Positions 4,183 through 39,921 of a stretch of 64,000 nt of DNA are shown in pieces. A program made the position numbers and the translations under genes. The stretch's first letter is position 1. The number at the start of each line of letters is the position of its first letter. Below the pieces are notes generated by a model, which ran no database searches, was not told the origin of the DNA, and saw only the letters and a list, made by a program, of their open reading frames with translations. The stretch is from Aliiroseovarius sediminilitoris (GTDB lineage Bacteria; Pseudomonadota; Alphaproteobacteria; Rhodobacterales; Rhodobacteraceae), in contig NZ_FOJB01000001.1 of assembly GCF_900109955.1 (NCBI RefSeq), positions 1,674,001 to 1,738,000 of the forward strand, read 5' to 3'.

Positions 4183-4190
4183 GTCTTTCG

Positions 4191-8399: not shown

Positions 8400-8417
8400 G
8401 ATGCCCATCCCCAACCT

Positions 8418-8450: not shown

Positions 8451-8562
8451 GGGTGAATGTTGGTAGGGTCAGAGAGCTGTGCTAGGCTGAGCATAGGGCC
8501 GTCGGCCTTGTCACGCAGGCGTTTGGCGGCATGAAAGGTGCATGAACCATCAGGAGGGTCCG

Positions 8563-9150: not shown

Positions 9151-9182
9151 TCGGCACGCGCGGCCATTGCACGCAAAATGGT

Positions 9183-9941: not shown

Positions 9942-10015
9942 GCGGGCAGGCCGGAACTGGTCAGCCCAATGCAAACGGTGCGCGCGGACTTCGCACCAAA
10001 CCCGGAGGAATTCCT

Positions 10016-11290
10016 ATGCAACTGAACAGACGTCTTTTCATGGGCGGCGCGGCGGCGGGGGCTGCTGCGGCCAGCTTGGCGGCTCCGATGGCACATGCCT
10101 CGAACCACGGTAAGCCCAAGGTCGTGGTGATCGGTGGCGGCGCTGGCGGTGCGACCGCGGCGCGTTACATCGCCAAGGACAGCAAGGGCGAGATCGATGT
10201 GACGCTGGTCGAGCCCACGCGCAGTTATTACACCTGCTTCTTCTCGAACCTGTATCTGGCGGGGTTTCGAAAGCTGAGTTCGATCGCGCACAGCTATGGC
10301 AAATTGGCGTCCGATTTCGGGGTCAACGTGGTTCATGACTGGGCGGTCGGGATCGACCGCGCGGCACGCACCGTCACGCTGGCAGGTGGGGCGACGCTGC
10401 CTTATGACCGCCTGATCCTGTCGCCCGGCATTGATTTTGTCGATGGCACGGTCGAGGGCTGGGATGTCACCCAGCAAAACAAGATGCCCCATGCCTACAA
10501 GGCCGGGTCGCAATCCGAACTTTTGAAAGCGCAGATCGAGGCGATGCCCGAAGGCGGCACCTTCGCCATGGTGGCGCCACCCAACCCGTTCCGCTGCCCT
10601 CCGGGGCCGTATGAGCGGATCTCGATGGTGGCGCATATTCTGAAGGCGAAGAACCCGACCGCCAAGATCATCATCGCCGACCCGAAAGACAAATTCTCTA
10701 AAATGGCGCTGTTTCAGGAAGGTTGGGGGGATCTTTACAGCGGAATGATCGACTGGATCGGATCGGATTTCGGAGGCGGAAACGTGTCGGTCAATCCCGA
10801 TGAAATGGCGCTGACCATAGACGGCGAAAAAACCAAGGTCGATGTGTGCAACGTGATCCCCGCCATGAAGGCCGGGCGCATTTGCGAGATTGCAGGTATC
10901 ACCGATGGCAATTGGGCGCCAGTGAACCCGCACACAATGCAAAGCCGTGTGGATGAAAACATCCATGTGCTGGGGGATGCCAGCCAGCAGGGCGACATGC
11001 CCAAGTCCGGCTTCGCTGCCAACAGTCAGGCGAAAGTGGCCGCGATGGCGGTGCGTGCTGCGCTGACCGGGTCCAAGCTGTTCCCGGCCAAGTTCACCAA
11101 CACTTGCTGGTCGTTGATCGACACAGACAACGGCGTGAAGGTTGGCGCGAGCTACGAGGCGACGGATGAAAAGATCGCCAAGGTGGACGGGTTTATCAGC
11201 CAGACCGGCGAGGATTCCGAACTGCGCAAAGCAACCTATGAGGAAAGCATCGGCTGGTATGCCGGGATCACCGCGGACATGTTCGGATGA
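10016..11290 (+). CDS. soxF: SoxF, flavocytochrome c sulfide dehydrogenase flavoprotein
   Basis: 424 residues. A Tat signal (NRRLFMGGAAAG) precedes an FAD/NAD-type Rossmann motif VVVIGGGAGGATAARY. Cys74 in YYTCFFSNLY matches the FccB cysteine that binds flavin covalently, and FRCPPGPYERI holds another conserved cysteine. It oxidises sulfide and in Paracoccus enhances thiosulfate oxidation. GGAGGA upstream selects the ATG at 10016 over an earlier in-frame start inside soxE. It follows its likely partner cytochrome directly. Confidence 0.92.
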   Translation: MQLNRRLFMGGAAAGAAAASLAAPMAHASNHGKPKVVVIGGGAGGATAARYIAKDSKGEIDVTLVEPTRSYYTCFFSNLYLAGFRKLSSIAHSYGKLASDFGVNVVHDWAVGIDRAARTVTLAGGATLPYDRLILSPGIDFVDGTVEGWDVTQQNKMPHAYKAGSQSELLKAQIEAMPEGGTFAMVAPPNPFRCPPGPYERISMVAHILKAKNPTAKIIIADPKDKFSKMALFQEGWGDLYSGMIDWIGSDFGGGNVSVNPDEMALTIDGEKTKVDVCNVIPAMKAGRICEIAGITDGNWAPVNPHTMQSRVDENIHVLGDASQQGDMPKSGFAANSQAKVAAMAVRAALTGSKLFPAKFTNTCWSLIDTDNGVKVGASYEATDEKIAKVDGFISQTGEDSELRKATYEESIGWYAGITADMFG

Positions 11291-11300
11291 CCTGTTGATA

Positions 11301-11320
11301 ATATTCGCTTGATAGAATAT
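11301..11320. promoter_or_regulatory. ATTC-N8-GAAT operator upstream of the DUF302 gene
   Basis: Perfect inverted repeat ATATTC, 8 bases, GAATAT, about 95 bp before the DUF302 start and just after soxF. Same architecture as the elements at 1940 and 11957, so probably bound by the same repressor, SoxR. Confidence 0.7.
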
Positions 11321-11334
11321 GTTTCAGTCAATGA

Positions 11335-11357
11335 CCGGGGCAGTTGTTTTGCCCCGG
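11335..11357 (+). terminator. GC-rich hairpin after soxF
   Basis: CCGGGGCA and TGCCCCGG form a perfect 8-bp stem around a seven-base loop. There is no T-run after it. It lies between the operator and the DUF302 start, so it could be a weak terminator of soxWEF or a leader hairpin. Confidence 0.4.
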
Positions 11358-11413
11358 CGCAATCTGCGGACGGGGCAGGGACCTTGCCCGCTGATCGTCA
11401 AGGAGTGCCTCTT

Positions 11414-11872
11414 ATGAAAAAGCTACTGACTCTTATTCTGTGTGCCGGCCTTTTCGCCGCGCCGGTCATGGCCGACAACCATGCCATGCAGGAAACCGAT
11501 CATGCGATCACCTATGCGTTCGAAGGCGAGTTCGATGACGCAACGTTCGCAGTGGAAACGGCCATTGTGGGAAAGGGGCTGGTAATCGACTATGTCAGCC
11601 GCACAGGCGCGATGCTTGAACGCACGAAGGGCGATGTCGGGTCTGACGTCAAAATCTATGACGCGGCTGACATCTTTTTGTTCTGCTCGGCTCAGATCAG
11701 CCGCGAGGTGATGGAACCTGACCCGATGAACATCGCCTTTTGCCCCTATGGCATCTTCGTCACCGATACGGATGGCGAAGTGCGTGTGGGCTATCGCAAG
11801 TATCCAGACGGTGACATGCAAAAGGTTCAGGCGCTTCTGGACGAAATCGTGCAAGACGCGGTTTCCGACTGA
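11414..11872 (+). CDS. DUF302 periplasmic protein
   Basis: 152 residues: a signal peptide (1-20, ending VMA) and a DUF302 domain. The domain sequence FLFCSAQISREVMEPDP followed by IAFCPYGIFV is characteristic. DUF302 proteins are common near sulfur-oxidation genes; their biochemical role is not established. AAGGAG eight bases before the ATG defines the start; an upstream open frame from 11309 is rejected because the signal peptide begins here. It has its own operator-like palindrome upstream and a terminator downstream, so it is probably a monocistronic SoxR-regulated gene. Confidence 0.8.
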   Translation: MKKLLTLILCAGLFAAPVMADNHAMQETDHAITYAFEGEFDDATFAVETAIVGKGLVIDYVSRTGAMLERTKGDVGSDVKIYDAADIFLFCSAQISREVMEPDPMNIAFCPYGIFVTDTDGEVRVGYRKYPDGDMQKVQALLDEIVQDAVSD

Positions 11873-11900
11873 GCCGTCGCAATTCCCTTGAAAAATCAAG

Positions 11901-11932
11901 CCCCGCGTGCCCGAATGGCAGGCGGGGTTTTT
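11901..11932 (+). terminator. Intrinsic terminator after DUF302 gene
   Basis: CCCCGC-g-TGCC pairs with GGCA-g-GCGGGG, followed by five T residues (11928-11932). It ends the DUF302 transcript before the yeeE promoter region. Confidence 0.85.
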
Positions 11933-11956
11933 GTTGACGTGGCGGAAGTCAGAAAA

Positions 11957-11976
11957 ACATTCAAAAAAACGAATGT
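11957..11976. promoter_or_regulatory. ATTC-N8-GAAT operator upstream of yeeE
   Basis: ACATTC, eight bases (mostly A), GAATGT: a perfect 6+6 inverted repeat 66 bp before the YeeE gene. Third member of the operator family in the sox region. Confidence 0.7.
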
Positions 11977-12041
11977 AACTCTTGTTCCAGTCACGGACTG
12001 AGCTTAACTTAACATGCGAACAGGACAGCTGTGAGGCGAAT

Positions 12042-12476
12042 ATGATCGAAACCGAATTTACACCCTGGGCCTCCGCGATCGGTGGGGCGCTGATTGGACT
12101 TGCATCCGTATTTCTGATGTGGGTGCGCGGGAACGTTTTTGGCGCGACCGGAATCCTGGCGGGGTTTCTGCAACCCAGCAGTTCGACCGACTGGTCGTGG
12201 CGCGCGGTCATCCTTGCGGGGATGCTGACCGGTCCTCTGGTCTTTCTGGCCGCAACGGGCGGCTTTCCGACGATCGAGGTGCCGGTTTCCACCCTGTCGA
12301 TGATCATCGGCGGGTTGATCGTTGGCGTCGGGGTCACTTATGGCTCGGGTTGCACATCGGGGCACGGAGTCTGCGGCATGGCGCGGTTTTCGACGCGGTC
12401 CATCGTCGCCACGCTGACTTTCATGGCAGGCACGGCGGTGATGGTGTTTCTGACCCGTCACGTCGTTGGTCTGTAG
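12042..12476 (+). CDS. YeeE/YedE-family sulfur transporter, first half
   Basis: 144 residues with about four membrane helices and the family signature YGSGCTSGHGVCG near residue 105. YeeE/YedE (TsuA, PmpA) proteins carry thiosulfate or related sulfur species; many alphaproteobacteria encode them as two half-size proteins, as here. GAGG lies just before the ATG. The second half follows after 12 bases. The palindromic operator upstream suggests induction by reduced sulfur together with sox. Confidence 0.85.
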   Translation: MIETEFTPWASAIGGALIGLASVFLMWVRGNVFGATGILAGFLQPSSSTDWSWRAVILAGMLTGPLVFLAATGGFPTIEVPVSTLSMIIGGLIVGVGVTYGSGCTSGHGVCGMARFSTRSIVATLTFMAGTAVMVFLTRHVVGL

Positions 12477-12488
12477 CAGGAGCGCAGG

Positions 12489-12932
12489 ATGAAACTTTTA
12501 CTGACATATCTGGCAGGCGTCGTCTTTGGGCTGGGGATTGCGATCTCGGGCATGGCGAACCCGGCCAAGGTTCTGAACTTCTTTGATGTCTTTGGAACCT
12601 GGGATCCAAGCCTTGCCTTTGTGATGGGGGCCGCACTCCTGGTGACGGCACCTGGCTACATGCTCGTCTTCAAACGCCCCAAGCCCGCCTTTGCCGAAGG
12701 CTTCAAGCTGCCCGGCACAAAGTTGGTTGACCGAAAACTGGTGCTGGGGTCGTTCACCTTTGGTCTTGGGTGGGGGCTGTCTGGCTTTTGTCCCGGTGCG
12801 GCACTGCCCGTGATCTCGACCGGCAACCCTGCGGTTCTGATATTCACCGCCTCCCTGATTGCGGGCATGCTTTTGGCCCGCTGGATGATTGCAAACTCAG
12901 CCCGGCGGCAGGACGCCGCGCAGGCCAACTGA
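12489..12932 (+). CDS. YeeE/YedE-family sulfur transporter, second half
   Basis: 147 residues, about four membrane helices. It contains GLGIAISGMANPAKVLNFFD near the start and LGWGLSGFCPGAALP in the middle, the second-half counterparts of the YeeE cysteine motifs; the cysteine in GFCPG is placed to relay sulfur through the membrane. It pairs with the upstream half-transporter. Downstream are a persulfide-dioxygenase-like enzyme and a sulfurtransferase, suggesting imported sulfane sulfur is handed to them. Confidence 0.85.
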   Translation: MKLLLTYLAGVVFGLGIAISGMANPAKVLNFFDVFGTWDPSLAFVMGAALLVTAPGYMLVFKRPKPAFAEGFKLPGTKLVDRKLVLGSFTFGLGWGLSGFCPGAALPVISTGNPAVLIFTASLIAGMLLARWMIANSARRQDAAQAN

Positions 12933-12977
12933 CAATTGGGTGCCAATCGCACCTGCACAGACAGGAAAGGACATGTC

Positions 12978-13865
12978 ATGAGCGACTATCCCGTCAACAC
13001 GTCCCTCAAACCCGAGGTGAAAGCCTTTTTCGAGGAGGAGTCGAACACGATCTCCTATGTGGTCAAAGACCCGGCGTCAAAAGCCTGTGCGGTGATCGAC
13101 AGTGTCATGGACATTGACTATGCCGCCGGTCGGATCACCCATGACCATGCGGACCAGATCATTGCCTTTATCAAAGCCGAAGGGCTAACGCTTGAGTGGC
13201 TGATCGAAACCCATGTCCATGCCGATCACTTGTCCGCCGCGCCCTATATTCAGGGCAAGTTGGGCGGCAAGATCGGCATCGGATCCAAGATCACCGTGGT
13301 GCAAGAAGTGTTCGGCAAAGTCTTCAACGAGGGCACCGAGTTCCAGCGTGACGGCAGCCAGTTTGACCGGCTGTTCGAGGAAGGCGATACCTACAAGATC
13401 GGCACGATGGATGCGTTCGTCATGCACACGCCCGGCCATACACCGGCCTGCATGGTGCATGTGATCGGTGATGCGGCCTTTGTGGGCGACACACTTTTCA
13501 TGCCCGACGGGGGTTCAGCACGCGCCGACTTCCCGGGCGGCGACGCGGGCGAACTTTACGATTCCATTCAGAAGGTTCTGGCCCTCCCCGATGAAACCCG
13601 GCTATTCATGTGCCACGATTACGGGCCGAACGGGCGCGATATTCAGTGGGAAACCAGTGTGGCGGATGAGAAAGCGCACAACATCCATGTGGGTGGCGGC
13701 AAAACCAAAGAGGAATTCGTGAAATTCCGCACCGAGCGTGATGCGCAACTTGCCATGCCGCGGCTGATCATCCCGTCGCTTCAGGTCAATATGCGGGCAG
13801 GTGACATGCCGCCCGCAGATGAAGATGGGAAGACCTTCCTGAAAGTGCCCGTGAACACGCTTTGA
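12978..13865 (+). CDS. MBL-fold hydrolase, persulfide-dioxygenase-like
   Basis: 295-residue metallo-beta-lactamase-fold protein. The metal motif THVHADH (His79, His81, Asp83, His84) is complete, and HTPGHTPACM and FVGDTLFMPD supply the further metal ligands. It resembles ETHE1/BlhA-type enzymes that oxidise glutathione persulfide to sulfite. The ATG at 12978 follows GGAAAGGA. It lies between the yeeE pair and a BLH sulfurtransferase, the usual arrangement in H2S-detoxification loci controlled by BigR/SqrR repressors. The substrate is inferred, not visible in the sequence. Confidence 0.8.
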   Translation: MSDYPVNTSLKPEVKAFFEEESNTISYVVKDPASKACAVIDSVMDIDYAAGRITHDHADQIIAFIKAEGLTLEWLIETHVHADHLSAAPYIQGKLGGKIGIGSKITVVQEVFGKVFNEGTEFQRDGSQFDRLFEEGDTYKIGTMDAFVMHTPGHTPACMVHVIGDAAFVGDTLFMPDGGSARADFPGGDAGELYDSIQKVLALPDETRLFMCHDYGPNGRDIQWETSVADEKAHNIHVGGGKTKEEFVKFRTERDAQLAMPRLIIPSLQVNMRAGDMPPADEDGKTFLKVPVNTL

Positions 13866-13889
13866 GATGACGCTTGGAAAGGCAGTGAC

Positions 13890-14225
13890 ATGCAGATGAA
13901 GAAACTCGACGATAAGGTGACGGTCGCGCCGCAGATCACCGCAAATGACATTCCCGCCATCAAGGCTGCCGGATTCACCGTGGTGATATGCAACCGCCCC
14001 GATGGGGAAGAACCGGGTCAGCCCGCTTGGGCCGAGATCAGTGCTGCTGCCGAAGCCGCAGGGCTGGCCACGTCTTTCCTGCCCATGTCGAACCGTGAAG
14101 ACGCCTTTGCCGTCATGGCCGAGTTTCAACGCGTGGTGGACGAGGCGCCGGGCCCGGTCTTCGCCTATTGCCGCACCGGCACACGCAGCGAGATTTTGTG
14201 GATGACCGCGCAAGCCAACGCTTGA
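13890..14225 (+). CDS. BLH-type sulfurtransferase (TIGR01244/DUF442)
   Basis: 111 residues with a phosphatase/rhodanese-like active-site loop CRTGTRS; Cys94 is the presumed persulfide carrier. The family (BLH, DUF442) is found alone or fused to the MBL persulfide dioxygenase; here it immediately follows that gene with a 24-base spacer. It probably transfers sulfane sulfur between glutathione or the YeeE import route and the dioxygenase. An alternative start six bases downstream exists. Confidence 0.8.
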   Translation: MQMKKLDDKVTVAPQITANDIPAIKAAGFTVVICNRPDGEEPGQPAWAEISAAAEAAGLATSFLPMSNREDAFAVMAEFQRVVDEAPGPVFAYCRTGTRSEILWMTAQANA

Positions 14226-17226: not shown

Positions 17227-18582
17227 TCAGGGAAGCAGAATACCCGCCAGCACGCCAAGGCCCAGTGTCGCCGCTGCCGTGGCCGCAAGTACCATCGCAA
17301 GCAGGGGCATGATCGGCCCCGCCACGGCGTCATCGGAAGCGCGATACAAGGGCACCACCATGCGCAGGTAAACCCCGAGCGCGAGGACGGAGTTCAGGAT
17401 CCCGACGATGGCGAGCCACAGGTAGCCTGCCTCGACCGCCGCCATGAACAGATAGACCTTGCCGACAAAGCCGAAAAGCGGCGGAATCCCGGTGAGCGAC
17501 AACAGAAACACGACCATCGCCACCCCGAGCCAGGGGCGGGATCGCCCGACGCCTCGCAGATCGTCAAGCGTCCGCCCTGTCGCCATCACGACGGCGAATG
17601 CGCCGAGGTTCATCGCCACATAGGCCGCCGCGAATACCAGGATGGCGGGAACCGCGATGGGGCTGACGCCGAGCGCCACGACGCCCATCAGGATGTATCC
17701 CGACTGCGCCACAGAGGAATAGGCGATCAGCCGCACCAGGTTGGTCTGCACCAATGCCGCAAGATAGCCGTAGGTCATCGTCGCCGCCGAGATCAGCGCC
17801 AGCGCGAACGGCCAGACGGACTCGCGCGGGAGGTCGCGCAGCACCTGGGCGAAGGCGAAGAAGGCCGCCATTTTGGTGACGACCGACAGATAGGCCGCGA
17901 CCGAGACCGGCGCGCCGTCATAGGCGTCCGGCGCCCAGAAATGGAACGGCACCAGCGATGCCTTGTAGCCAAGGCCCACGATCACCGCGATCAGTCCCGC
18001 AATGGTCACGAGTGTCTGGCCGCGCAACTGGTCGAGTTCGGAGAACAGCGTCGATCCGGCACCGCCAAACCAGAAGGTCAGCCCGTAGATCATTACCGAT
18101 CCGGTGACTGCGCCAAAGACGAGGTATTTCATCCCCGCCTCGGTGGCCGCGTCGTCGCGCGGATAGCTCACCAGAGCGAAAGACCCCAGCCCGGTCAGCA
18201 CCACGCCGATGACGACCACCATCATGTCGCCCGCCCCCGACAGCATCAGCGCGCCCAGCGTGACCAGCACGATAAGGGAATAGACGCTGCCCTCGCGGTC
18301 GCGCCCGGCGATCTCGGACCGTGCCATCAGCAGCGCCAGCGCCGTGCCGGGAAGCAGGATCAACTTGGCCCATCCGGCGATTGTGTCGATCCGGTATGTG
18401 CCGCCGAACACGGTGGTGTCGGCATCGAGCACCGCAAATGTCAGCGTCGTGGACGCGGCCAGCGCCAGAAGCCCGATCGCCAGCACCAACCGCGCCGCCC
18501 GGGCCATTTCGGCCACGATCATCAGCATGGCGGCACCGGCCAGCAGCAGCTCGGGGGCGAGAAAGGACAGGTCGCGCAGCAT
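17227..18582 (-). CDS. NuoN-like antiporter-type subunit
   Basis: 451 residues with about 13-14 membrane helices. It belongs to the Mrp-antiporter-like subunits of complex I, recognisable by GLGYKASLVPFHFWAPDAYDG (broken-helix lysine region) and IAYSSVAQSGYILMG. It is the last gene of the nuoA-BD-HJKLMN operon and starts with a one-base overlap with nuoM. Length is close to typical NuoN. Symbols are left blank because the operon is not a standard nuo set and may not be an NADH dehydrogenase. Confidence 0.88.
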   Translation of the reverse strand: MLRDLSFLAPELLLAGAAMLMIVAEMARAARLVLAIGLLALAASTTLTFAVLDADTTVFGGTYRIDTIAGWAKLILLPGTALALLMARSEIAGRDREGSVYSLIVLVTLGALMLSGAGDMMVVVIGVVLTGLGSFALVSYPRDDAATEAGMKYLVFGAVTGSVMIYGLTFWFGGAGSTLFSELDQLRGQTLVTIAGLIAVIVGLGYKASLVPFHFWAPDAYDGAPVSVAAYLSVVTKMAAFFAFAQVLRDLPRESVWPFALALISAATMTYGYLAALVQTNLVRLIAYSSVAQSGYILMGVVALGVSPIAVPAILVFAAAYVAMNLGAFAVVMATGRTLDDLRGVGRSRPWLGVAMVVFLLSLTGIPPLFGFVGKVYLFMAAVEAGYLWLAIVGILNSVLALGVYLRMVVPLYRASDDAVAGPIMPLLAMVLAATAAATLGLGVLAGILLP

Positions 18583-20042
18583 CAGTTGGCCAAGCTCGTC
18601 ATGGTGGTGTGGATGATGTCAATCAGCCAGCCGGGTGCCACGCCAACCAGAATCGTCAGGATCAGAAGCGGCACCACAACCAGTTTCTCGCGCCGGTCCA
18701 GATCGGGCATGTCGGCCCACTTGTCGTTGGCCTCTCCCAGAAACACCGCCGCGATGGCGCGCAGATAAAGCGCCGCCGTCACCACGATGGCCAGAACCGC
18801 GACAATGGCCCAGGGTGCTGCGTTGAGCGTGGCCAGGAAGACCTGGAACTCGGCCGGGAAATGCGCCAGACCCGGCAGGCCAAGCGAGGCGAAGGCCGAC
18901 AGGATGAACGCCCAGCCCAACCATGGCACGCGGCCCAGAAGCCCACCGAAATCGGTCATCTCGCGGCTATGCGCCCGGTCCTGCAACATGCCGACCAGAA
19001 AGAACAGCGCGCCTGTCACCAGCCCGTGACTGACCATCTGCAAAGTCGCGCCGTCGAGCCCGATGGTTCGGATGCGCGGATCGCTTGCCAGTGCCGCCAC
19101 CGCGACGCCGATCACGACGTAACCCATGTGGTTGACCGAGGTGTAGGCGATCATCTTTTTCAGGTCCGTCTGCGCCAGCGCCGCGAAGGCGCCGTAAAGC
19201 GCGCTGACCACCCCGAAAACCAGGATCACCTGACCGGCCAGCACAAAAGCCTCGGGCGTCATCTGCCATGCAAAGCGCACCAGCCCGTAGGTGCCGAATT
19301 TCAGCATCACGCCCGCCAGGATCACACTGCCCGCTGTGGGGGCCTGAACATGTGCCGCCGGTAGCCATGTGTGCACCGGAAAGGCCGGAATTTTGACTGC
19401 GAAGGTAAACAACATCGCAATAAGGGCCAGCATCGCCGCCAGCCCGGTCAGCGGCGGTGCGTCGATCCAGACCCGCATGTCAAACGAGCCACTGCCCAGA
19501 TACAGCCCGATGATCGCCAGCAGCAACGGCAGAGACCCCAGCAGCGTATAGAGGAAGAACATCAGCGCGGCGCGCTGGCGGTCCTCATAGCCCCAGCCGG
19601 CGATCATGAAATACATGCCGACCAGTGAAACCTCGAAGAAGACGTAGAACAACAGCCCGTCCAGCGCCATGAAAGTGCCGAGCGCGGCGGTCTCCAGCAT
19701 CAGCATCAGCACGACATAGCTGGCCGCACGTTGGCCGATCCGCGCCGAATAGATCGCCGACAGCAGGAACAGCAGCGAAGTGAGCAGCACAAGCGGCAGG
19801 CTCAGCCCATCCAACCCAAGCCGATAGGCTGCGCCGATGGCGGGGATCCAGGCGATTTCCTCGATTTGCGCGAATCCGCTGGGGACAATACCGCGCGACC
19901 AGATCGCCAGCGTGATCAGAAAAACGGTCCCGGTTGCCGCGATGGACACCCCATGCGCGGTTCTTGCGGACCGGTCTGGCAGGGCCATAAGGACAAGACC
20001 CGACAGGATCGGCAAGAAGGTGGCGATGGTCAGAAGCGGCAT
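18582..20042 (-). CDS. NuoM-like antiporter-type subunit
   Basis: 486 residues, about 14 helices. The family glutamate (FFEVSLVGMYFMI) and lysine (FAVKIPAFPVHTWLPAAHVQ) are present, and KMIAYTSVNHMGYV is typical NuoM, so proton-pumping residues are retained. The frame extends far upstream without a stop, but the ATG at 20042 follows AAGGA and gives the normal hydrophobic N-terminus (MPLLTIATFLPIL). An 11-base spacer separates it from nuoL. Confidence 0.9.
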   Translation of the reverse strand: MPLLTIATFLPILSGLVLMALPDRSARTAHGVSIAATGTVFLITLAIWSRGIVPSGFAQIEEIAWIPAIGAAYRLGLDGLSLPLVLLTSLLFLLSAIYSARIGQRAASYVVLMLMLETAALGTFMALDGLLFYVFFEVSLVGMYFMIAGWGYEDRQRAALMFFLYTLLGSLPLLLAIIGLYLGSGSFDMRVWIDAPPLTGLAAMLALIAMLFTFAVKIPAFPVHTWLPAAHVQAPTAGSVILAGVMLKFGTYGLVRFAWQMTPEAFVLAGQVILVFGVVSALYGAFAALAQTDLKKMIAYTSVNHMGYVVIGVAVAALASDPRIRTIGLDGATLQMVSHGLVTGALFFLVGMLQDRAHSREMTDFGGLLGRVPWLGWAFILSAFASLGLPGLAHFPAEFQVFLATLNAAPWAIVAVLAIVVTAALYLRAIAAVFLGEANDKWADMPDLDRREKLVVVPLLILTILVGVAPGWLIDIIHTTMTSLAN

Positions 20043-20053
20043 AAATTCGATCC

Positions 20054-21871
20054 TTAGAGAAAGAGCGGAGCGGCGAGAAGAACGCCAACGACAACGGCAA
20101 TACCGGCGAAGGTCAACGCCATTTCGCGGTGGATGAAGCCGCTTTGCAGGCGGCGCGCGCGGGCAGCCAGCGCGATCGTGCGGTCCACAAAACCGAAAAT
20201 TGTACCGTTGATAATGTCGTGGTCGGTGCGAAGGGCATTGCGACCGACAGACAGACTGTACCGGCCTATCGCGAGAACGCCAGCAAAGAGCCACCGCTCC
20301 AAACGTTCGCATGCGGCGGCCAGCGCCAGTGCGGGGCGGGCCACCAGCGCGTCCATGCCGCCCCCGACCGCAAAGCCGTTTTGCGCCGGGGCCAGCAGTG
20401 GGCCGAGCAGTCGGGCGGGAGGCAGCGCCCAGCCAAGCGCCAGCCCGCCAAGGCCCACGGCCAATCCCATCGCCGGGATGATCCATGAGGGCTCGGGCAG
20501 TTCCGCGCCCAACATCGTCTCAAGCGGTTTGAACCCGAAGCCGAGCGTCACGGCGAGCGTGACCAGAACCCCCATGCCGACTGCCATGTAAGGCACCGCG
20601 TCTTGGGCCTTGCCGGCCGCGCCGGACCACAGCACACGCAGCGCCCGGGCCATGTAGGCCCCGGTCAGCACCGACCCGGCCAGCGCCAGCGGCAGCAGCC
20701 AGACCGCAGACGGGCTGTCGAGCGCGGCAGCGAGGATAGCATCCTTCGAGACATAAGCGGCCATCGGCGGCAGCCCTGCCAGCGCCAGTGCCGCCAGCGC
20801 GAAGCCCGCGAAGATACCGGGGCGGGCGCGTCCGGCACCGGCCAGCGCGTCTAGATCGGTGCGCTCGCGGTCATGCTGGAACACGCCCGCGCCAAGAAAC
20901 AGCGAGGATTTGATCGCGGCATGGGCGATCAGGTGCAAAAGGGCTGCCACCGGTGCACCGGCGCCGAGCGCCACGAGCATCAGCCCGTACTGGCTGGCGG
21001 TGGAGGCCGCGAGCAGGCGCTTGAGGTCACGCGCGGCCAGCGCCATCAGCCCAGCCACGAGGGCGGTGATCCCGCCGACGACACCCACAGCCAGCAACGC
21101 GCCACCCGGCAGCATCGGTGCCGCGCGGATCAGAAGGATCGCACCTGCCGCCACCAGCGTCGCCGAATGCAAGAGCGCTGAGACCGGCGTCGGCCCGGCC
21201 ATGGCCCGCATCAGCCAGTCCTGCATCGGCACCTGCGCCGATTTCCCCATCGCGGCGAACAGCAGCAGAAGTCCGGCGATCAGCGCCGGTGTGCCGGTGG
21301 TGGCAAGGGTGGCGGAAATCTCGGAGGTTCCGGCCACGCCGATCAGCAGGAAGGCGGCGAGATACAGCCCCAGATCGGCGGTGCGGGTGTATAGAAACGC
21401 CCGCATGGCCGCAGCCGGAACGCCCGCGCGACCATACCAGAAGCCGATCAGCAGGTAGGAGGAAAAGCCGATCATCTCCCACGCCGCCAGAAGCGTGATC
21501 CAGTCGCCCGACAGCACCAGAAGCTGCATCGCGGCGACGAACATCAGCATGGTACCGAAAAAGCGGATCTTTTCGGGATCGCGGGCCATGTAGCCAGCGG
21601 CATAGGTCAGCACCATCGCGGCGACCGTGGCCACAACCAGCGACAGCGTTGCCGTCAACGGGCTGGCCAACAGCCGGATCGGAAGGTCTGGCAGGAAGGG
21701 CAGCGAGGCCATGACGTCTGTGCCATCCATGGCTCCGGCGAACAGCCCGAGCGCCCCGGCAAGCCCCAACCCTGCGCCCGCCAGCGCGATTGCGGCTGGC
21801 AGCCGCCGGAGCACGAAGACCGCAAGCCCGGCACCCAGCGGGGCCAGAAGCGTGAGCGCCAGCCAGTTCAT
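20054..21871 (-). CDS. NuoL-like antiporter-type subunit
   Basis: 605 residues. The essential glutamate (AAWEMIGFSSYLLIGFWY) and broken-helix lysine (GKSAQVPMQDWLMRAMAGP) are conserved, as is SALLHSATLVAAG. The C-terminus (about 530-605) retains the amphipathic lateral-helix/final-TM region that runs along the membrane arm in true NuoL, which distinguishes it from simple Mrp subunits. It overlaps nuoK by four bases. Likely the distal pump of the arm. Confidence 0.9.
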   Translation of the reverse strand: MNWLALTLLAPLGAGLAVFVLRRLPAAIALAGAGLGLAGALGLFAGAMDGTDVMASLPFLPDLPIRLLASPLTATLSLVVATVAAMVLTYAAGYMARDPEKIRFFGTMLMFVAAMQLLVLSGDWITLLAAWEMIGFSSYLLIGFWYGRAGVPAAAMRAFLYTRTADLGLYLAAFLLIGVAGTSEISATLATTGTPALIAGLLLLFAAMGKSAQVPMQDWLMRAMAGPTPVSALLHSATLVAAGAILLIRAAPMLPGGALLAVGVVGGITALVAGLMALAARDLKRLLAASTASQYGLMLVALGAGAPVAALLHLIAHAAIKSSLFLGAGVFQHDRERTDLDALAGAGRARPGIFAGFALAALALAGLPPMAAYVSKDAILAAALDSPSAVWLLPLALAGSVLTGAYMARALRVLWSGAAGKAQDAVPYMAVGMGVLVTLAVTLGFGFKPLETMLGAELPEPSWIIPAMGLAVGLGGLALGWALPPARLLGPLLAPAQNGFAVGGGMDALVARPALALAAACERLERWLFAGVLAIGRYSLSVGRNALRTDHDIINGTIFGFVDRTIALAARARRLQSGFIHREMALTFAGIAVVVGVLLAAPLFL

Positions 21872-22179
21872 CCCTTGAGCTCCCGCGCTTCTTCCATCTC
21901 GACCGATCCGCGCGACCGGAACCGGGCGATGGCGATGCCAAAGCCCACCGCCATTTCGACGGCCATCACCGCCATGACGATCAGCACGAACATCTTGGCC
22001 GCCGTCACATCGGGGTGCAGATAGCGCCAGAAGGCGACCATGTTCACCAAGGCGGCGGCAAGCACCAGTTCGACCCCCATTATGATCATCACCAGATTGG
22101 TCTGGCTCAGTGCGCCATAAAGGCCGACGCCAAACAGCGCCGCACCGACGCTGAGTGCAATCATGAGTTCGGGGATCAT
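21868..22179 (-). CDS. NuoK-like subunit
   Basis: 103 residues, three helices. Both membrane glutamates of NuoK are retained: Glu37 in MGVELVL and Glu75 in MAVEMAVGF. Its four-base overlaps with nuoJ (upstream) and nuoL (downstream) show translational coupling. Conservation of these glutamates argues that the arm still conducts protons. C-terminal tail (after about residue 86) is charged and slightly longer than usual. Confidence 0.9.
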   Translation of the reverse strand: MIPELMIALSVGAALFGVGLYGALSQTNLVMIIMGVELVLAAALVNMVAFWRYLHPDVTAAKMFVLIVMAVMAVEMAVGFGIAIARFRSRGSVEMEEARELKG

Positions 22180-22694
22180 CTCTTATCCTCTTGTCGCGGG
22201 GCGATGGCCACCATTGTCGCGGCGATCATCGCCGTCAGGATCATCAGCGCTGCGCTTTCGAAGACGAACATCGAGCGGCCCAGGATCTCGCGACCCAGCA
22301 TCCGCGCCTGTTCGTCTGCACCCGGCACATCGGGCACCGGCCCCTGCCATCCAGCGGTCCAGATCACCGCCAGCGCCGCCCCCAGCCCGATGCCTCCGGC
22401 CCAGAGCGACAGGCGTTTCTGGTGGGACATGTCCATCTTTCCCATGCCGCCGGGATCCATCATGAACATGACCATGAAGATCGCCATGACGCTCATCTCG
22501 GTGGCCATCATCATGATCTGGAGAACGCCCAGAAATTCAGCTTGCATGACCAGGAACATCGCTCCGATGGCGGTCTGGCTGAACAGCAACGCAATGGCTG
22601 AACGCACCATGGAATGTGTGCGGAATACGACGACGCCGAACCAGATCGCGGCAATACCGAAGAAGGCGAGGAAAAAGGCGGCGGCAAGGCTCAT
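22176..22694 (-). CDS. NuoJ-like subunit with methionine-dense segment
   Basis: 172 residues, about five helices, in the NuoJ position. The usual NuoJ third-helix sequence (GAIMVLFLFV-like) is replaced by a stretch with twelve Met between residues 61 and 89, running into a short Gly/Met/His loop (GGMGKMDMSHQ). Such Met spacing is typical of copper- or silver-contacting segments, which matches the metal-binding domains in the fused subunit; this is inference. The start at 22694 overlaps the nuoH stop (ATGA). The longer open frame upstream is a shadow of nuoH. Confidence 0.85.
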   Translation of the reverse strand: MSLAAAFFLAFFGIAAIWFGVVVFRTHSMVRSAIALLFSQTAIGAMFLVMQAEFLGVLQIMMMATEMSVMAIFMVMFMMDPGGMGKMDMSHQKRLSLWAGGIGLGAALAVIWTAGWQGPVPDVPGADEQARMLGREILGRSMFVFESAALMILTAMIAATMVAIAPRQEDKR

Positions 22695-23590
22695 ATCGGC
22701 ACCACCAGGGCGATGACGCCAACCAGGAAGATATTGGCCAGCGCCAGCGAAATGCCGAGTTTCCAACTGACGGCCAGATACCGTGCCTCGCGCAGGCGCG
22801 GCAGGTGGCGGCCTCCCAGCAGCATCGCCGCAATCACCACCAGCGTCTTGAGCGCCGTCCAGGCCCAGCCCGGCAGCCACGGACCAAGCCAGCCGCCGAG
22901 ATAAAAGGTGACGGTGGCGCTGGCAAGCGCCACGACGATCACCAGCCGCGCCAGCCTGAAAATCGCCAGCCGCGCGCCGGTGTATTCGGCCTCGACCCCG
23001 CTGGCCAGATCGCCGCCGCCCGTGGGCAGGTCGATCGGTGGCAGCCACGCCACGCCCATTGCCGCGATCACGAACAGGACGAAGCCAATGGGCTGATAGG
23101 CGACGTTCCACAACGCCGCCTGCGACAACACGATCTGGGTGGTGGACAGCGACTCGGCGCGCATCGCGACCGCCGTGATCGGCATCACGATCAGCATCGC
23201 ATAGGCAACGAACTGACCCAGGAACCGCCAGCCCGCGATCATGCCATAGGCCCCGTTCGGCCCCCAGCCGGCCATGATCAGTGCCACCAGCACATAGGCC
23301 AACGCGGCGTTGAGGAACAGCGCGCCGATGGCCAGATCGGTGATGATCAGTTCTGGTGCCATCGGGATCACCGCCACCGACAAAAGTCCCGCAATCAGCA
23401 GCAGCACCGGCCCGGCCTCGTAAAACAGCCGGTCGGGCGTGCGCGGCAGGATCTGTTCGCGGCCAAGCAGCGCCAGCGCCGAGATGGCAGGGCGCGTCAG
23501 ACTGAACCGCCCGTGGACCGCCCAGCCCTCAAGCACCGCTACCGCGTAACAACCGATGGCAAGCGCCAGAAGGATGGCGGCGATGGTCAT
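22691..23590 (-). CDS. NuoH/HycD-like membrane subunit
   Basis: 299 residues, about eight helices, shorter than respiratory NuoH and closer in size to hydrogenase HycD/EchB-type subunits. The conserved loop SGVEAEYTGARLA retains the acidic residues of the NuoH E-channel region. It anchors the hydrophilic B/D module to the membrane arm. Four-base overlaps on both sides (ATGA with the BD fusion and with nuoJ). The frame remains open upstream to 24229 only as a shadow of the fusion gene. Confidence 0.87.
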   Translation of the reverse strand: MTIAAILLALAIGCYAVAVLEGWAVHGRFSLTRPAISALALLGREQILPRTPDRLFYEAGPVLLLIAGLLSVAVIPMAPELIITDLAIGALFLNAALAYVLVALIMAGWGPNGAYGMIAGWRFLGQFVAYAMLIVMPITAVAMRAESLSTTQIVLSQAALWNVAYQPIGFVLFVIAAMGVAWLPPIDLPTGGGDLASGVEAEYTGARLAIFRLARLVIVVALASATVTFYLGGWLGPWLPGWAWTALKTLVVIAAMLLGGRHLPRLREARYLAVSWKLGISLALANIFLVGVIALVVPI

Positions 23591-25737
23591 GCGCCGGTCC
23601 CCCAGGGATCGAGGTCGAGAGAACCGACAGCGGTCAGTGCCTCGGCCAATTCCATCTGGTCCGTCATCGCCCCGACAAGCCCGGCAAGCGCCGCGAAAGG
23701 CGTCGTCAGATACAGCGTTTCGACCGCACCGCCCTTCAGCTTCAGATGCAGCGTGGCGGGGCCGCGCGGGGTTTCGACCGTTGCCATGCCGTGCCCGTCC
23801 GGCATCAGTGGCGTGGGTGGGACGGGCAGGGCGATGGCCCCGATGCGCGCAATCAAATCGAGGCTTTGCCCGATTTCGTCCCCGCGCTGCGACAGCCGCG
23901 CCCAGGCGTCGCCCTCGGATTGGGTTATCGGCTGAAAGCCGAGCGCGGCATAGGCCTCGTCCTTTTCCCGTGCATCCGTGACGATACCCGAGGCGCGCGC
24001 GACGGGACCGCCGATGCCCTCGGCTCCGGATCGACTGATCCGTCCGATATTGGCCAGCCTCTCGCGGAGGAGCGGCGTGCGGCGCAGCCGGTCTGCAAAC
24101 GCGCGGATCGCCGGGGCACGGCGTGCGACTTCGCCCGGATCGGCCATGCGCAACCCTTGATGAAGAGCGCCAGCACGGCGTTCCAGCCACACGAGCCCGG
24201 TCTGTCGGGCAAGCCCGGCGAGCCAGCACAAATGGCTGGCGACACGTTCGCGTTCAACAGCGGCGACGCGGGCTGCGGTATCGCTTGGCGAGGGCGTGCG
24301 CCCCCCAGCGGTTTCAAGCGCCCGACAGGCAAGTTCGCGCAAGACCACAGGAGAGAGCGGTGAAAGTGCGGCGAGCCGGTCGGGCAACTCTGCCGCCAAA
24401 AAGCCCGGTGCGAGTGCGACCGCGCCGAGGCTTGCCGCCTCGGCTCGCGCCACACTGTCGCCGTCAAGCGTGAGCATCAGCCCAAGACCACTCGGAAGTC
24501 CCGGAAAGAACGGGCCGTATGGCGCGTCGATCCATTCCATGACCAATCCGTCCGGGCTGACGGGCTTGCCTTCGGTCAGAGCGGCCATGGACATGAAATG
24601 CGGCTCGATCCCGGGAATGTCGGGTGCGGGCCCGTGACCGCCGTGACCGCCGTGACCGCCGTGACCCTGCTCTCCACCCTGTTCGTCGGCACCGGTATGT
24701 CCCGTGTGATCCCCGGTGTCGGCCTGCGGCACCAGGTTCATACCGCATTTCGGGCAGGAACCGGGGGTGTCCGAGATCACTTCGGGGTGCATCGGGCAGG
24801 TGTAGGTTTCGGTCGCCGCCTGCGACTTGGGCTTGTGGTGGCCGTGGTCATCTTGACCGCGATGTTGGTGATGACGGTGATCCCCGGTGTCGGCCTGCGG
24901 CACCAGGTTCATGCCGCATTTCGGGCAGGAACCGGGGGTGTCCGAGATCACTTCGGGATGCATCGGGCAGGTGTAGGTCGCAAGACCTGCGGAGGTATGG
25001 GTGGCGTGTGTGGAATGGTTGGATTTTTCGGCTTGCGCTGGATGCTCAGGCGATTTTTCATGGCCTTCATGGCCTTCATGGCCTTCATGGCCTTCATGGC
25101 CTTCATGGCCTTCATGGCCTTCATGGCCTTCATGGCCTTCATGGCCTTCATGGCCTTCATGGCCTTCATGGCCTTCATGGCCTTCATGGCCCGTCTTGTT
25201 CGATCCCGACACTGCACGCTCGACCAGGAACATCCCGCATTTGGGGCATTTTCCGGGCTCGTCCGACACCACTTCGGGGTGCATCGGGCAGGTATATTCG
25301 ATCCGTGTCGTCAGTGCAGGAGCGGTGAAATCCGTGACCTTCTGCGCAAAGGCGCCGGAGACGAAGGCGTGGCGGAGATCGGCAAGACCGGCGGCCAATC
25401 CGTCCTGCGACAACGCGCCGATCGCGTCCGGTTCGGGCAGGGCGGGGATCTCACCGGCACCCAACGCGAGGATCGCGCGGGGCCGGGGCATCTGCGCCCA
25501 GACAACGCAGGCGGCGTCGCGCAGCGCGGGCGGCAGCGGCCCGGCAATCAGCAACACATTCGCGTGGCGCGGGGTATCGGCGCGGTGAAGTCCGGCAGCG
25601 GCAAGATCCAGCCCAAGCGCCTGCGCGACATCGGGGCCCGGCACCACAAAGGCGCACAGATCCCGCGCCATCGCCTGCGCGATCAGTCCACGAAAACCCG
25701 TCATCCTGCCTTCGCGTGCTCCGGACAAAATCTTCAT
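23587..25737 (-). CDS. NuoB-like/heavy-metal-binding/NuoD-like fusion protein
   Basis: 716 residues. (1) Residues about 20-130 resemble NuoB: ANVLLIAGPLP and MPRPRAILALGAG align with NuoB's DVLIVAGT and MPEPRWVISMGSC, but the cluster-N2 cysteines are absent. (2) Three heavy-metal-binding domains, YTCPMHPEV then CPKCGM, at about 148-172, 255-280 and 312-337. (3) Fifteen consecutive Gly-His-Glu triplets at 183-227 and further His-rich linkers (up to about 370). (4) Residues about 395-716 resemble NuoD: ERERVASHLCWLAGLARQ, LANIGRISRSGAEG, RASGIVTDAREKDEAY and a final GSLDLD, but the GPQHPAAHG and HRGTEK quinone-site motifs are missing. The ATG at 25737 overlaps the nuoA stop. No NuoC, I or diaphorase genes are present. 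It may be a metal-responsive, non-redox connector of a complex-I-type membrane arm. Confidence 0.85.
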   Translation of the reverse strand: MKILSGAREGRMTGFRGLIAQAMARDLCAFVVPGPDVAQALGLDLAAAGLHRADTPRHANVLLIAGPLPPALRDAACVVWAQMPRPRAILALGAGEIPALPEPDAIGALSQDGLAAGLADLRHAFVSGAFAQKVTDFTAPALTTRIEYTCPMHPEVVSDEPGKCPKCGMFLVERAVSGSNKTGHEGHEGHEGHEGHEGHEGHEGHEGHEGHEGHEGHEGHEGHEGHEKSPEHPAQAEKSNHSTHATHTSAGLATYTCPMHPEVISDTPGSCPKCGMNLVPQADTGDHRHHQHRGQDDHGHHKPKSQAATETYTCPMHPEVISDTPGSCPKCGMNLVPQADTGDHTGHTGADEQGGEQGHGGHGGHGGHGPAPDIPGIEPHFMSMAALTEGKPVSPDGLVMEWIDAPYGPFFPGLPSGLGLMLTLDGDSVARAEAASLGAVALAPGFLAAELPDRLAALSPLSPVVLRELACRALETAGGRTPSPSDTAARVAAVERERVASHLCWLAGLARQTGLVWLERRAGALHQGLRMADPGEVARRAPAIRAFADRLRRTPLLRERLANIGRISRSGAEGIGGPVARASGIVTDAREKDEAYAALGFQPITQSEGDAWARLSQRGDEIGQSLDLIARIGAIALPVPPTPLMPDGHGMATVETPRGPATLHLKLKGGAVETLYLTTPFAALAGLVGAMTDQMELAEALTAVGSLDLDPWGTGA
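24706..24978. repeat. Two 102-bp near-identical direct repeats (HMBD 2 and 3)
   Basis: Segments 24706-24807 and 24877-24978, 171 bp apart, differ at only a few bases. Each encodes one heavy-metal-binding domain plus the following PQADTGDH. The near-identity at silent positions indicates a recent internal duplication inside the fusion gene. A nearby run of GTGACCGCC units at about 24634-24666 encodes His-Gly-Gly repeats. Confidence 0.9.
25057..25191. repeat. 15 exact tandem copies of a 9-bp unit
   Basis: TTCATGGCC repeated without change fifteen times on the plus strand; on the coding minus strand it reads GGC CAT GAA, giving (Gly-His-Glu)15 in the fusion protein. The 9-bp unit keeps frame, so copy number can change by slippage without destroying the gene. 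Confidence 0.97.
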
Positions 25738-26096
25738 TGCCGCCTCAACGCGCCCTGGGACCAGCCATAGAGCAGCCCAAGGAACAAAACCGCCAGGAAA
25801 ACGCCCATGTCGAGAAGGGCGACCAACCCTTCTTCGCGGTAGACCACCGCCCATGGATACATGAATGCCATCTCCATGTCGAAGGCGAGAAACAATAATG
25901 CATAGCCGTAATATTTCGCGTGATAGCGCACCCAAACCGGATCACGCGACAATGTGCCGGCAGTGGCGGGCACGTCCTTGGCTGGTTCGGCTCGACTTGG
26001 GCCAATGACACGGGCCAGCGCATAGAGGCTCAGGACCAAGCCGACCGTGCCGACCGTCAGGCCGAAAAGAATAGCGTATTGGGCAAGCTCACTCAT
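25734..26096 (-). CDS. NuoA-like subunit
   Basis: 120 residues, three helices. The second helix keeps the acidic signature FLAFDMEMAFMYPWA (Asp73, Glu75), equivalent to FDLEVVFLFPWA of NuoA. The periplasm-facing loop that normally carries YECGFEP is replaced by a Pro/Ala-rich stretch without cysteine. The ATG at 26096 has a GGAG element about 13 bases upstream; longer upstream frames are not supported. It overlaps the fusion gene by four bases and is the promoter-proximal gene of the operon. Confidence 0.88.
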   Translation of the reverse strand: MSELAQYAILFGLTVGTVGLVLSLYALARVIGPSRAEPAKDVPATAGTLSRDPVWVRYHAKYYGYALLFLAFDMEMAFMYPWAVVYREEGLVALLDMGVFLAVLFLGLLYGWSQGALRRQ

Positions 26097-26574
26097 TTGT
26101 TTTTCGTAGCTCCTGCCGTGACTCGCTGAATGTACCGAAACATAGTCACGGCGACTTGGCATGACAACTGCACAACTGCGGTTTTGCACCGGAACCATGT
26201 CGGGCCGGACCGATCGCCTGCCGGGCATCGTGTCACAGGCCGTTGCCCCTGCGCGGCACACCGGCGTGGACATGCCGTTCGCATGGTCCGGGTAAGAACA
26301 AGTGCGCTGGCAGCAGGGCAGGAAAGCGGTTCCCATACCCCGGACCACGTTACGGTCGGAGCGGCCTGTATCCTGAGGGGGATGAGCACGCCGCTCGCCT
26401 CGATCTTCGGAAGCGCGTTTCATGTTGTCGTCCCGCTGTTGGCCGGCCGCCCCGGTTGTGCCGGTGGCAAAGCAACGGTAGGGGGCAAGGTGAGCAGACA
26501 GCACGTGACAGTGTTCCGCCGGGCGGATAGAACGAAAGAAGTTCGTCTTTTCAATTCCGACTGGAACCTCTCGC
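26097..26574. promoter_or_regulatory. Divergent control region between the Nuo-like operon and DUF6629
   Basis: About 480 bp with no supported gene; it must hold promoters for both directions. The only symmetric element noticed is GAAC-N7-GTTC at about 26530-26544, close to the DUF6629 side, which could be an operator. No FNR-type TTGAT-N4-ATCAA box or ATTC-N8-GAAT palindrome was seen. Confidence 0.4.
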
Positions 26575-27261
26575 ATGTGCCTTTCCCAGACTGTCAGCTT
26601 CACCGCCAGCGCCTTCCTTGTCACCGGTGGCACTTACGCAGTAGCGCGGGCCTGGGCGATCAACAAACGCTACCTTCCGGTGGCCCTGATGCCGGTCTTC
26701 GCCGGTCTCCAGCAGTTCATGGAAGGAAATGTCTGGTGGGGGGTGAACACCGGTGATCCGGGCACGACCCTGCTGGGCGCGCTTGGCTTCATCTTCTTCA
26801 CTTGGTTCATGTGGCCGTTCTGGATACCGCTGGCCAGTTGGGTGCTGGAACCGCCCGAAAGTCGTCGACGACCTTGGATGGCGGCGATGTCGGTCGCCGG
26901 GTTGGCGTTCGGCCTGGCACTCTACCTGCCGCATCTGGTGCGGCCCGACTGGGTTGAGGTAACGGTCAATCAGGATTCATTGGCCTATGAGGGCACGATG
27001 ATCCTCGACTACCTGATGCCACGCTGGATGACCTATGTGGTTTACCTGTTCCTGATCATCGCACCGCCTGCGATCTCGACCTATTACCACATGCGCTGGT
27101 TCGCGCTGACCATCGTCGCGGTGGTGGTCGTTGACATCCTGTTCCTGCGCTATGCCTATATTTCCTTCTTCTGCCTTCTTGCAGGGCTGGGGACGCTGCA
27201 TTTGATATACATCATCGTGCGGAACAAATGCGCGCGTGAATGCCCGGTGCTGTTCGCCTGA
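26575..27261 (+). CDS. DUF6629-family membrane protein
   Basis: 228 residues with about seven membrane helices, starting MCLSQTVSFTASAFLVTGG, the typical DUF6629 opening (MCFSAxxSF-like). GLQQFMEGNVWWG and YLFLIIAPPAIS are other family-like segments. Function unknown. It is divergent from the Nuo-like operon and could share its regulation. The last 135 bp of the gene are duplicated at 28031-28165. Ribosome site is weak. Confidence 0.75.
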   Translation: MCLSQTVSFTASAFLVTGGTYAVARAWAINKRYLPVALMPVFAGLQQFMEGNVWWGVNTGDPGTTLLGALGFIFFTWFMWPFWIPLASWVLEPPESRRRPWMAAMSVAGLAFGLALYLPHLVRPDWVEVTVNQDSLAYEGTMILDYLMPRWMTYVVYLFLIIAPPAISTYYHMRWFALTIVAVVVVDILFLRYAYISFFCLLAGLGTLHLIYIIVRNKCARECPVLFA

Positions 27262-39904: not shown

Positions 39905-39921
39905 ATGAAGGGGAGGCCACT

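Follow-up and report, generated by a model that had tools for sequence, protein, structure and literature searches.

A complex I-like membrane arm with invariant methionines as a candidate proton-driven copper transporter

The stretch of DNA analyzed here (the window) comprises 64,000 nucleotides of Aliiroseovarius sediminilitoris, C1:1674001-1738000 in an assembly of 3.41 Mb, and contains at 17227-26096 an operon that resembles the membrane arm of respiratory complex I. Eight co-directional intact frames on the minus strand encode NuoA, a fusion of NuoB and NuoD (BD), and NuoH, NuoJ, NuoK, NuoL, NuoM and NuoN. All of them start with ATG, are free of internal stops and score above the Pfam cut-offs, and the frames overlap by 1-4 base pairs (bp) at six of the seven junctions: 4 bp at the five from A through BD, H, J and K to L, and 1 bp at M/N, with a gap of 11 bp at L/M. 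The operon begins with the NuoA-like subunit (25734-26096, 120 amino acids (aa); PF00507, E=6.8e-26) and BD (23587-25737, 716 aa), followed by the subunits like NuoH (22691-23590, 299 aa; PF00146, E=4.6e-52), NuoJ (22176-22694, 172 aa; PF00499, E=1e-20) and NuoK (21868-22179, 103 aa; PF00420, E=4.7e-17). The three antiporter-like subunits complete it, namely NuoL (20054-21871, 605 aa) and NuoN (17227-18582, 451 aa), both assigned by Pfam and residue alignment, and NuoM (18582-20042, 486 aa; TIGR01972, 476 bits against a cut-off of 263.8). Features given below without a strand are on the minus strand.

The BD fusion and the missing redox module

Pfam, profile and alignment evidence divides BD into a NuoB-like domain, a metal-binding linker and a NuoD-like domain, with Pfam itself recognizing three HMBD heavy-metal-binding domains (PF19335) and Complex1_49kDa. 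The N-terminal domain (25300-25737) matches NuoB weakly and under the cut-off (NF005012, E=0.00022) and finds MbhJ/NuoB chains in the Protein Data Bank (PDB; best E=2.5e-6). It retains TPRHANVLLIAGPLP...AQMPRPRAILALG and has lost the N2 cluster cysteine positions (A3 alignment). Among the relatives collected as described below, BD statistics refer to the 65 copies in which a single frame contains both ends (at 19 loci the frame is split or partial, by position mostly cut at a contig end); the aligned NuoB-like part has 0-3 cysteines, none in 40 of these copies, and the entire BD frame of the actinobacterial record L097 is devoid of cysteine. The C-terminal domain (23587-24612), whose best PDB matches are Mbh alpha/NuoD chains (E=3.3e-20), keeps the helices and the ETPRG motif of NuoD and lacks the quinone His/Tyr and the NiFe Cys (A1 alignment). 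At the entry of this domain, an FMSM motif (24586-24597) is invariant in 48/48 and 46/46 aligned rows of two overlapping sets, whereas the invariance of M400 arises partly by construction, that residue being contained in one of the search patterns, and was hence not used as evidence. Judged by these alignments, BD has lost its redox and quinone sites and appears to be redox-inactive.

The linker (24613-25299) consists of the three HMBD domains and His-rich spacers; among relatives it is usually rich in histidine and varies from 40 to 368 residues. The HMBD motif CPMH or CRMH was found in the linkers of 57 of the 65 copies, and seven of the eight without it carry 15-86 linker histidines. In the window, part of the linker is encoded by 15 perfect 9-bp tandem repeats coding (GHE)n (25057-25191; Tandem Repeats Finder, 100% matches), which look like a recent expansion because all copies are identical.

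No match to NuoC, NuoE, NuoF, NuoG or NuoI was found in the window or in 84 related loci, some of which end at contig edges (tblastn with E. coli queries, E<=1e-3). As a positive control, all five queries matched a separate canonical nuo operon of the same genome, whose nuoD lies at C1:1396757 (572 bits); the surrounding 20 kb also match E. coli A, B, CD, H, J, K and L, canonical M and N being outside the stretch compared. A supply of redox genes in trans was considered and rejected, as the C/E/F/G/I genes of this genome belong to its own canonical operon. Because canonical NuoD scored above the cut-off in all 10 genomes of the same family in which the module was found (A. sediminilitoris included), the module comes on top of complex I and does not take its place. 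One of the module-bearing genomes contains a further NuoD-like protein (L142, G265:C15:22944-23765; 142 bits to TIGR01962, below the cut-off), which may belong to another complex-I-like system.

A preliminary description of the window, prepared from the letters alone, had read the locus as an eight-gene minus-strand membrane arm, A-(B/D)-H-J-K-L-M-N, and the frames, overlaps and Pfam matches agree with it. Its statement that the B/D part lacks redox-site residues was borne out by the missing N2 cysteines, quinone residues and NiFe Cys, and the absence of C/E/F/G/I by the negative search with its positive control; these genes sit in the canonical operon, and none was found elsewhere as part of the module's own unit. 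The conclusion that this is not a respiratory NADH dehydrogenase is likewise supported, since neither the NADH module nor the iron-sulfur (Fe-S) wire has a match.

Channel residues and methionine gain in the membrane subunits

The row counts that follow include near-identical copies, the distinct sequences numbering 61 for A, 69 for H, 71 for J, 62 for K, 70 for L, 61 for M and 61 for N; the canonical comparison sets are small for L, M and N (5-8 rows), and all canonical rows come from the phylum of the window. The channel residues of two antiporter-like subunits are well conserved: all six NuoL positions checked (E144, R175, K229, H254, K342 and K399) are kept in 72/72 rows, and NuoM keeps E144, K234, K265, H322 and E407 in 68/68, with K173 replaced by Met in 57 and by Thr in 11. 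NuoN, the neighbor of the E-channel, keeps the lysines checked, except K217 in four rows, and its TM5 glutamate (E133) has given way to Val or Leu in 67/67. In NuoK, the glutamates Glu37 and Glu75 are retained, E36 of the alignment being kept in 79/79 rows and E72 in 75/79 (Asp in four). Thus, the Glu/Lys motifs of NuoL and NuoM and the two NuoK glutamates, reported as retained in the preliminary description, hold up in alignment apart from K173, and the loss of the NuoN TM5 glutamate and of two NuoH glutamates goes beyond it.

In complex I, the E-channel is made up of A, J, K and part of NuoH, and it is connected by a rotation of NuoJ helix 3 involving a pi-bulge (PMC10212512). It is in these subunits that methionines have been gained. 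NuoJ helix 3 carries the run M61, M62, M63, E66, M67, M70, M74, M78 and M79 (22458-22514), and its eight methionines and glutamate, in the pattern MMM..EM..M...M...MM, occur in 78/78 relatives (71 distinct) and in 0/37 canonical NuoJ. M63 replaces a tyrosine, aligned with E. coli Tyr59, that is present in 37/37 canonical sequences, E66 is new in the family (78/78 rows), and the last methionine aligns to a gap or to Asp/Asn, depending on the alignment. The nearly linkerless L121 still has the eight methionines and the glutamate. Overall methionine content reaches 10.9% in NuoJ (9.6-15.2, n=78) against 5.0% in canonical NuoJ (2.1-7.8, n=37), and 9.0% in NuoK (6.8-11.1, n=79) against 3.0% (2.0-5.0, n=38), with disjoint ranges in both cases.

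The other E-channel subunits follow the same trend. Helix 3 of NuoK contains M69, M72, E75 and M76 (21952-21975), the three methionine positions being Met in 79, 79 and 75 of 79 relatives and in 2, 0 and 0 of 38 canonical rows. In NuoA, the motif D-M-E-M-A-F-M (25860-25880) interleaves three new methionines (M74, M76 and M79; 71/71 relatives, 0/8 canonical rows) with the acids corresponding to E. coli D79/E81, which are kept in 71/71. New methionines of NuoH (M132, M136 and M143; 23162-23197) lie beside the lost E157 and are found in 78, 78 and 77 of 78 relatives and in 0/9 canonical rows. All 78 NuoH sequences are changed: the quinone-loop residues E36/R37 are gone, appearing as deleted in one alignment and as substituted in another, E157 has become Ala or Ser and E241 has become Arg; D63, R209, E216 and E218 are mostly lost as well.

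Columns in which 95% or more of the relatives have a new Met number 22 of 704 in A/H/J/K against 6 of 1542 in L/M/N (p=3e-7), distributed as A 3, H 4, J 12 and K 3 versus L 0, M 1 and N 5, one of the five NuoN columns being the start methionine. At the 80% level the numbers are 27 and 16 (p=2e-5). Among the 20 amino acids, this A/H/J/K to L/M/N ratio is highest for Met (22:6), followed by Glu (7:3), His and Asn (3:2), Ser (7:5) and Arg (11:8). Base composition does not explain the gain, because the overall methionine content of L, M, N and H is below that of their canonical counterparts and that of A is similar.

Distribution, selection and copper-gene context

A scan with the NuoD-like alignment covered 84,980 species genomes and yielded 114 matching stretches. 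A relative is encoded by 83 of them, and 80 were retained; the number is a lower bound, as one of two short exact peptide patterns was required. The relatives belong to five phyla, namely Pseudomonadota (Alpha- and Gammaproteobacteria), Actinomycetota (mostly Rubrobacter), Bacteroidota, Balneolota and Deinococcota (one row). Among 295 genomes drawn from the same family, both BD halves were found in at least 10 (A. sediminilitoris included) among the matches listed, with the halves on different contigs in G265 and G156. BD matches occurred in 124 of the 295, and most of those listed span the HMBD region only, for which reason the NuoD-like part (A1) was used in later searches. A class-wide draw with A1 returned 1/385 genomes, A. 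sediminilitoris itself, at E<=1e-20 with at most five candidates scored per genome. The module was not described in the open-access literature searched, subscription papers being mostly beyond that search.

The same gene set is located on plasmids of Paracoccus, Sulfitobacter, Nitratireductor and Rubrobacter, two of which were typed as conjugative. A quick NuoH tree separated the 78 relatives from 11 canonical and hydrogenase rows (E. coli HycD/HyfC and nine NuoH) with an SH-aLRT support of 100, the program warning of long branches. Identical NuoH proteins are shared by different genera, e.g., Afipia and Mesorhizobium. On the basis of the NuoH split, the identical sequences across genera and the plasmid copies, the family appears to be a lineage of its own that is passed from host to host. 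Gene order was examined in 84 sources (the window, four plasmids and 79 other loci; L038 and L099 are one record), and all 54 that show all eight genes have A-BD-H-J-K-L-M-N on one strand. Compared with two orthologues from the family (best local alignment, Nei-Gojobori), dN/dS ranged from 0.025 to 0.159 for the membrane subunits and from 0.21 to 0.33 for BD, one dS (A, 1.85) being near saturation; these ratios indicate that the window copy of the operon is under purifying selection. The order given in the preliminary description is identical in every complete source, and this constancy and the dN/dS of 0.03-0.33 speak against the decay that the description had named as a refuting condition.

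Two observations concern individual records. On Xanthobacter Py2 pXAUT01 (L039, 14660-15351) there is a remnant with only the NuoA-like gene and roughly 110 N-terminal residues of BD; it is annotated as Ni Fe-hydrogenase III large subunit-like and has a gene annotated as bilirubin oxidase nearby. The plasmid records L035-L038 name several subunits NADH-quinone oxidoreductase, though the cluster has no match to the NADH module.

With L099, the remnant L039 and the window omitted, 83 loci provided 656 kb of flanking sequence, which was compared with 34 random 20-kb windows (680 kb) from three family genomes. At least one of the searched copper genes was found at 27/83 loci versus 1/34 controls (p=0.0003), and at 20/43 loci versus 1/34 when at least 8 kb of flank was available. 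P1B ATPases occurred in 18 versus 1 (p=0.012), and CopZ (14 versus 1), CsoR (9 versus 0) and multicopper oxidase (8 versus 0) were singly not significant at 0.05. These p-values serve as guides only, because the controls come from one family, the queries were taken from the window and the case loci, and there is dependence among related loci. Cupredoxin relatives flank 3/77 loci (counted without L057, L060, L076, L088, L099, L105 and L124). The genes directly upstream of nuoA are more telling than the flank statistics. In five of nine actinobacterial records (L096, L097, L102, L122 and L131), an HMA (CopZ-type) gene lies about 23-212 bp upstream of nuoA, and a CsoR-type repressor precedes the HMA gene in L097 (NCBIfam name copper sensor RicR; 106.6 bits, below the cut-off of 175) and nuoA in L092. 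A YHS protein is encoded upstream in L121 and a Cys-rich DUF326 protein in L125. On the Sulfitobacter plasmid, beyond a transposase, there is a copper-resistance multicopper oxidase above its cut-off, accompanied by genes annotated as copper resistance protein B and cupredoxin.

The window itself encodes two copper-type P1B ATPases on the plus strand, one 11 kb from the operon (37400-39904; TIGR01511, 602.8 bits) and one with two CPMHPEV motifs (60787-63186; 590.5 bits), both over the cut-off of 397. A DUF6629 membrane protein (26575-27261, plus strand; PF20334) is a recurrent neighbor, found in the flanks of 16/83 loci and 0/34 controls. Beside it, a plus-strand frame at 26243-26530 that contains MSTPLASIFGS... 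resembles by eye the start of a 387-aa frame near the module in eight loci (for example L082, 17523-18683; no Pfam match) and is possibly a remnant. The Sulfitobacter plasmid also encodes, apart from the operon and near DUF6629 and a patatin-like gene, a 267-aa protein (L036, 1152-1955) that corresponds to the last two thirds of Proton_antipo_M (PF00361). Judged by the translations, a sox-type sulfur-oxidation cluster seems to be situated upstream, at 1-13900 of the window, and the frames at 39901-44576, between the two copper ATPases, are presumably arginine-deiminase-like.

Proposed function and comparison with known systems

Combining the redox loss, the metal-binding domains, the methionine run and the adjacent copper genes, we infer that the operon probably encodes an undescribed proton-powered copper-handling machine. 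A relation to copper or silver is very probable, and transport seems somewhat more probable than gating. The specific reading that we favor, which we rate as an even call, is that a redox-inactive branch of complex I has been rebuilt as a transporter of Cu(I), perhaps also Ag(I), driven by the proton motive force (pmf) and most likely an exporter, the direction being the weakest step of the proposal. The lost redox and quinone sites, the methionine run, the kept NuoL/NuoM residues, the purifying selection, the plasmid copies and the copper-gene neighbors can be read from the sequences; the metal, its movement, the direction and the coupling to protons are inferred from them. We give equal weight to the broader possibility that the family constitutes a new class of heavy-metal transporter, a complex I without its electron chain whose quinone cavity and E-channel have become a Cu(I) conduit made of methionines, carried on plasmids and copper islands in five phyla.

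Such a machine could work as follows. The HMBD/His-rich linker of BD would collect cytosolic Cu(I), which in some actinobacteria might be handed over by a CopZ-type chaperone. The ion could then pass the FMSM motif on its way into the former quinone cavity and cross the membrane along the methionines of the former E-channel in NuoJ helix 3, NuoA, NuoK and NuoH, and protons moving inward through the kept channels of NuoL and NuoM would pay for the transport. In the Mrp antiporter, the Na+ path is proposed to run through the NuoJ-fold part of MrpA and past MrpC, meeting the H+ channel at GluTM5 of MrpD (PMC7419157), and in CusB methionine serves to bind Cu(I) (PMC6715271). The proposal of Cu(I)/H+ exchange draws on both: Mrp provides redox-free exchange of cations for protons on the same scaffold, and in the module the same subunits are methionine-rich, the adjacent GluTM5 of NuoN is gone and the gained residue is one that binds Cu(I) in CusB.

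Several points weigh against this proposal. The methionines of NuoJ helix 3 are placed all round the helix (R=0.16, p=0.72), so that the idea of a single methionine-lined face was rejected. NuoM, outside the E-channel, also gained 10 methionine columns at the 80% level. The acids of NuoA and NuoK could serve proton conduction alone, and those of NuoH are partly kept (D213 in 78/78, E228 in 75/78). The linker of L121 (Trueperaceae) has only 40 residues and two histidines, and the HMA protein of L097 is without the usual CxxC pair. No searched copper gene was found at 56/83 loci, many on short contigs, and the copper queries, drawn from the window and the case loci, bias the count. Finally, a search for a CueR-type site in the window gave none near the operon, and the 20 loci inspected share no upstream dyad.

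Some of the same evidence could suit a metal-gated H+ (or Na+) valve or signaling device, in which Cu(I) bound to BD and the methionine run opens or closes the NuoL/NuoM channels and is itself not transported. The kept residues of these channels and acids of NuoK and NuoA, and the methionines surrounding NuoJ helix 3, would fit this scheme, and that helix, the site of most of the methionines, is a gating helix of complex I (PMC10212512). However, the new methionines extend to A, H and K, beyond what a sensor would need, and simply letting the pmf dissipate during copper stress would bring no obvious benefit; we regard the valve as unlikely. Less likely still is the same machine operating as an importer that supplies copper to membrane or periplasmic cuproenzymes. 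The multicopper oxidase and cupredoxin relatives in the flanks (8/83 and 3/77 loci) would be in keeping with such a role, whereas BD and the CopZ-type proteins are expected by homology to be cytosolic and the ATPases among the neighbors are of the export type.

A redox-driven pump that receives its electrons from elsewhere in the manner of Ehr complexes, or is driven by Cu(I)/Cu(II) chemistry, seems very doubtful. NiFe ligands are missing from Ehr complexes too, and separate oxidoreductases are presumed to act as their partners (PMC6349859), but BD has no Fe-S cysteine set, that of L097 has no cysteine whatsoever, and the NuoH quinone-loop residues are lost in 78/78. The heme and FAD proteins near the operon, suggested earlier as partners, were rejected in this role because relatives of the EB_dh-type heme protein and of the FAD protein recur in only 1/83 and 6/83 flanks. 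A decaying, functionless duplicate of complex I, in favor of which the Xanthobacter remnant could be cited, can practically be dismissed given the dN/dS values, the constant gene order, the invariant channel residues and the gained invariant methionines. Overall, the interpretation in the preliminary description is partly supported: the non-respiratory nature, the absence of decay and a link to metals hold up, and the heme/FAD partnership does not. Its reading is changed by three findings that were beyond its reach, namely the invariant methionines of the E-channel subunits, the copper genes nearby and the breadth of the distribution.

It has long been asked how the proton channels of complex I are coupled to an active site that lies far from them. 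In the module the redox input is replaced and the NuoL/NuoM channel residues are kept, and the complex could therefore reveal the roles of the E-channel and NuoJ helix 3. If the favored reading is true, it would represent a natural experiment in which the membrane arm is coupled to a non-redox process at the same entry point, and would add a kind of energized bacterial copper transporter to the existing P1B ATPases and Cus-type pumps. The naming of its subunits in plasmid records as NADH-quinone oxidoreductase or complex I misleads metabolic reconstructions.

The module shares with respiratory complex I homologous NuoA, B, D, H, J, K, L, M and N, the NuoL/NuoM channel residues and the NuoA/NuoK acids. 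It differs in having neither C/E/F/G/I nor N2 ligands, in its lost quinone-site residues and NuoN TM5 glutamate, in the fusion of B and D round metal-binding domains and in the new E-channel methionines. DabAB is a two-subunit system of DabA and DabB, and the eight subunits with NuoH, J and K support the earlier statement that the module is not of this type, DabA itself not being searched. The Mrp Na+(K+)/H+ antiporter is, like the module, a redox-free member of the superfamily, with a cation path proposed via NuoJ-like and NuoK-like parts beside the H+ channels (PMC7419157). In contrast to the module with its NuoH, B- and D-like parts and gained methionines, Mrp is described as lacking NuoH and as forming its Na+ site from acids and His (PMC7419157). 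The presence of NuoH and of B- and D-like parts thus agrees with the earlier exclusion of Mrp, MrpB, E, F and G not being searched separately.

Ehr complexes and group 4 [NiFe] hydrogenases (Mbh, FHL) resemble the module in their NuoB/NuoD-type soluble subunits, and the best PDB match of the NuoD-like part is Mbh alpha. Ehr lacks NiFe ligands and is suspected to be redox-linked (PMC6349859), whereas the module has no Fe-S subunit match: neither NuoI nor an N2-type cysteine set that could feed the NuoB/NuoD pair was found, other Fe-S proteins not being searched for. The module's NuoH also stands on a branch separate from E. coli HycD/HyfC and the nine NuoH. With Cus and the P1B copper ATPases (CopA), the module has in common the HMBD-type motif, present in a copper ATPase of the window, methionine, a Cu(I) ligand in CusB, and the gene neighborhood, but its membrane scaffold is entirely different.

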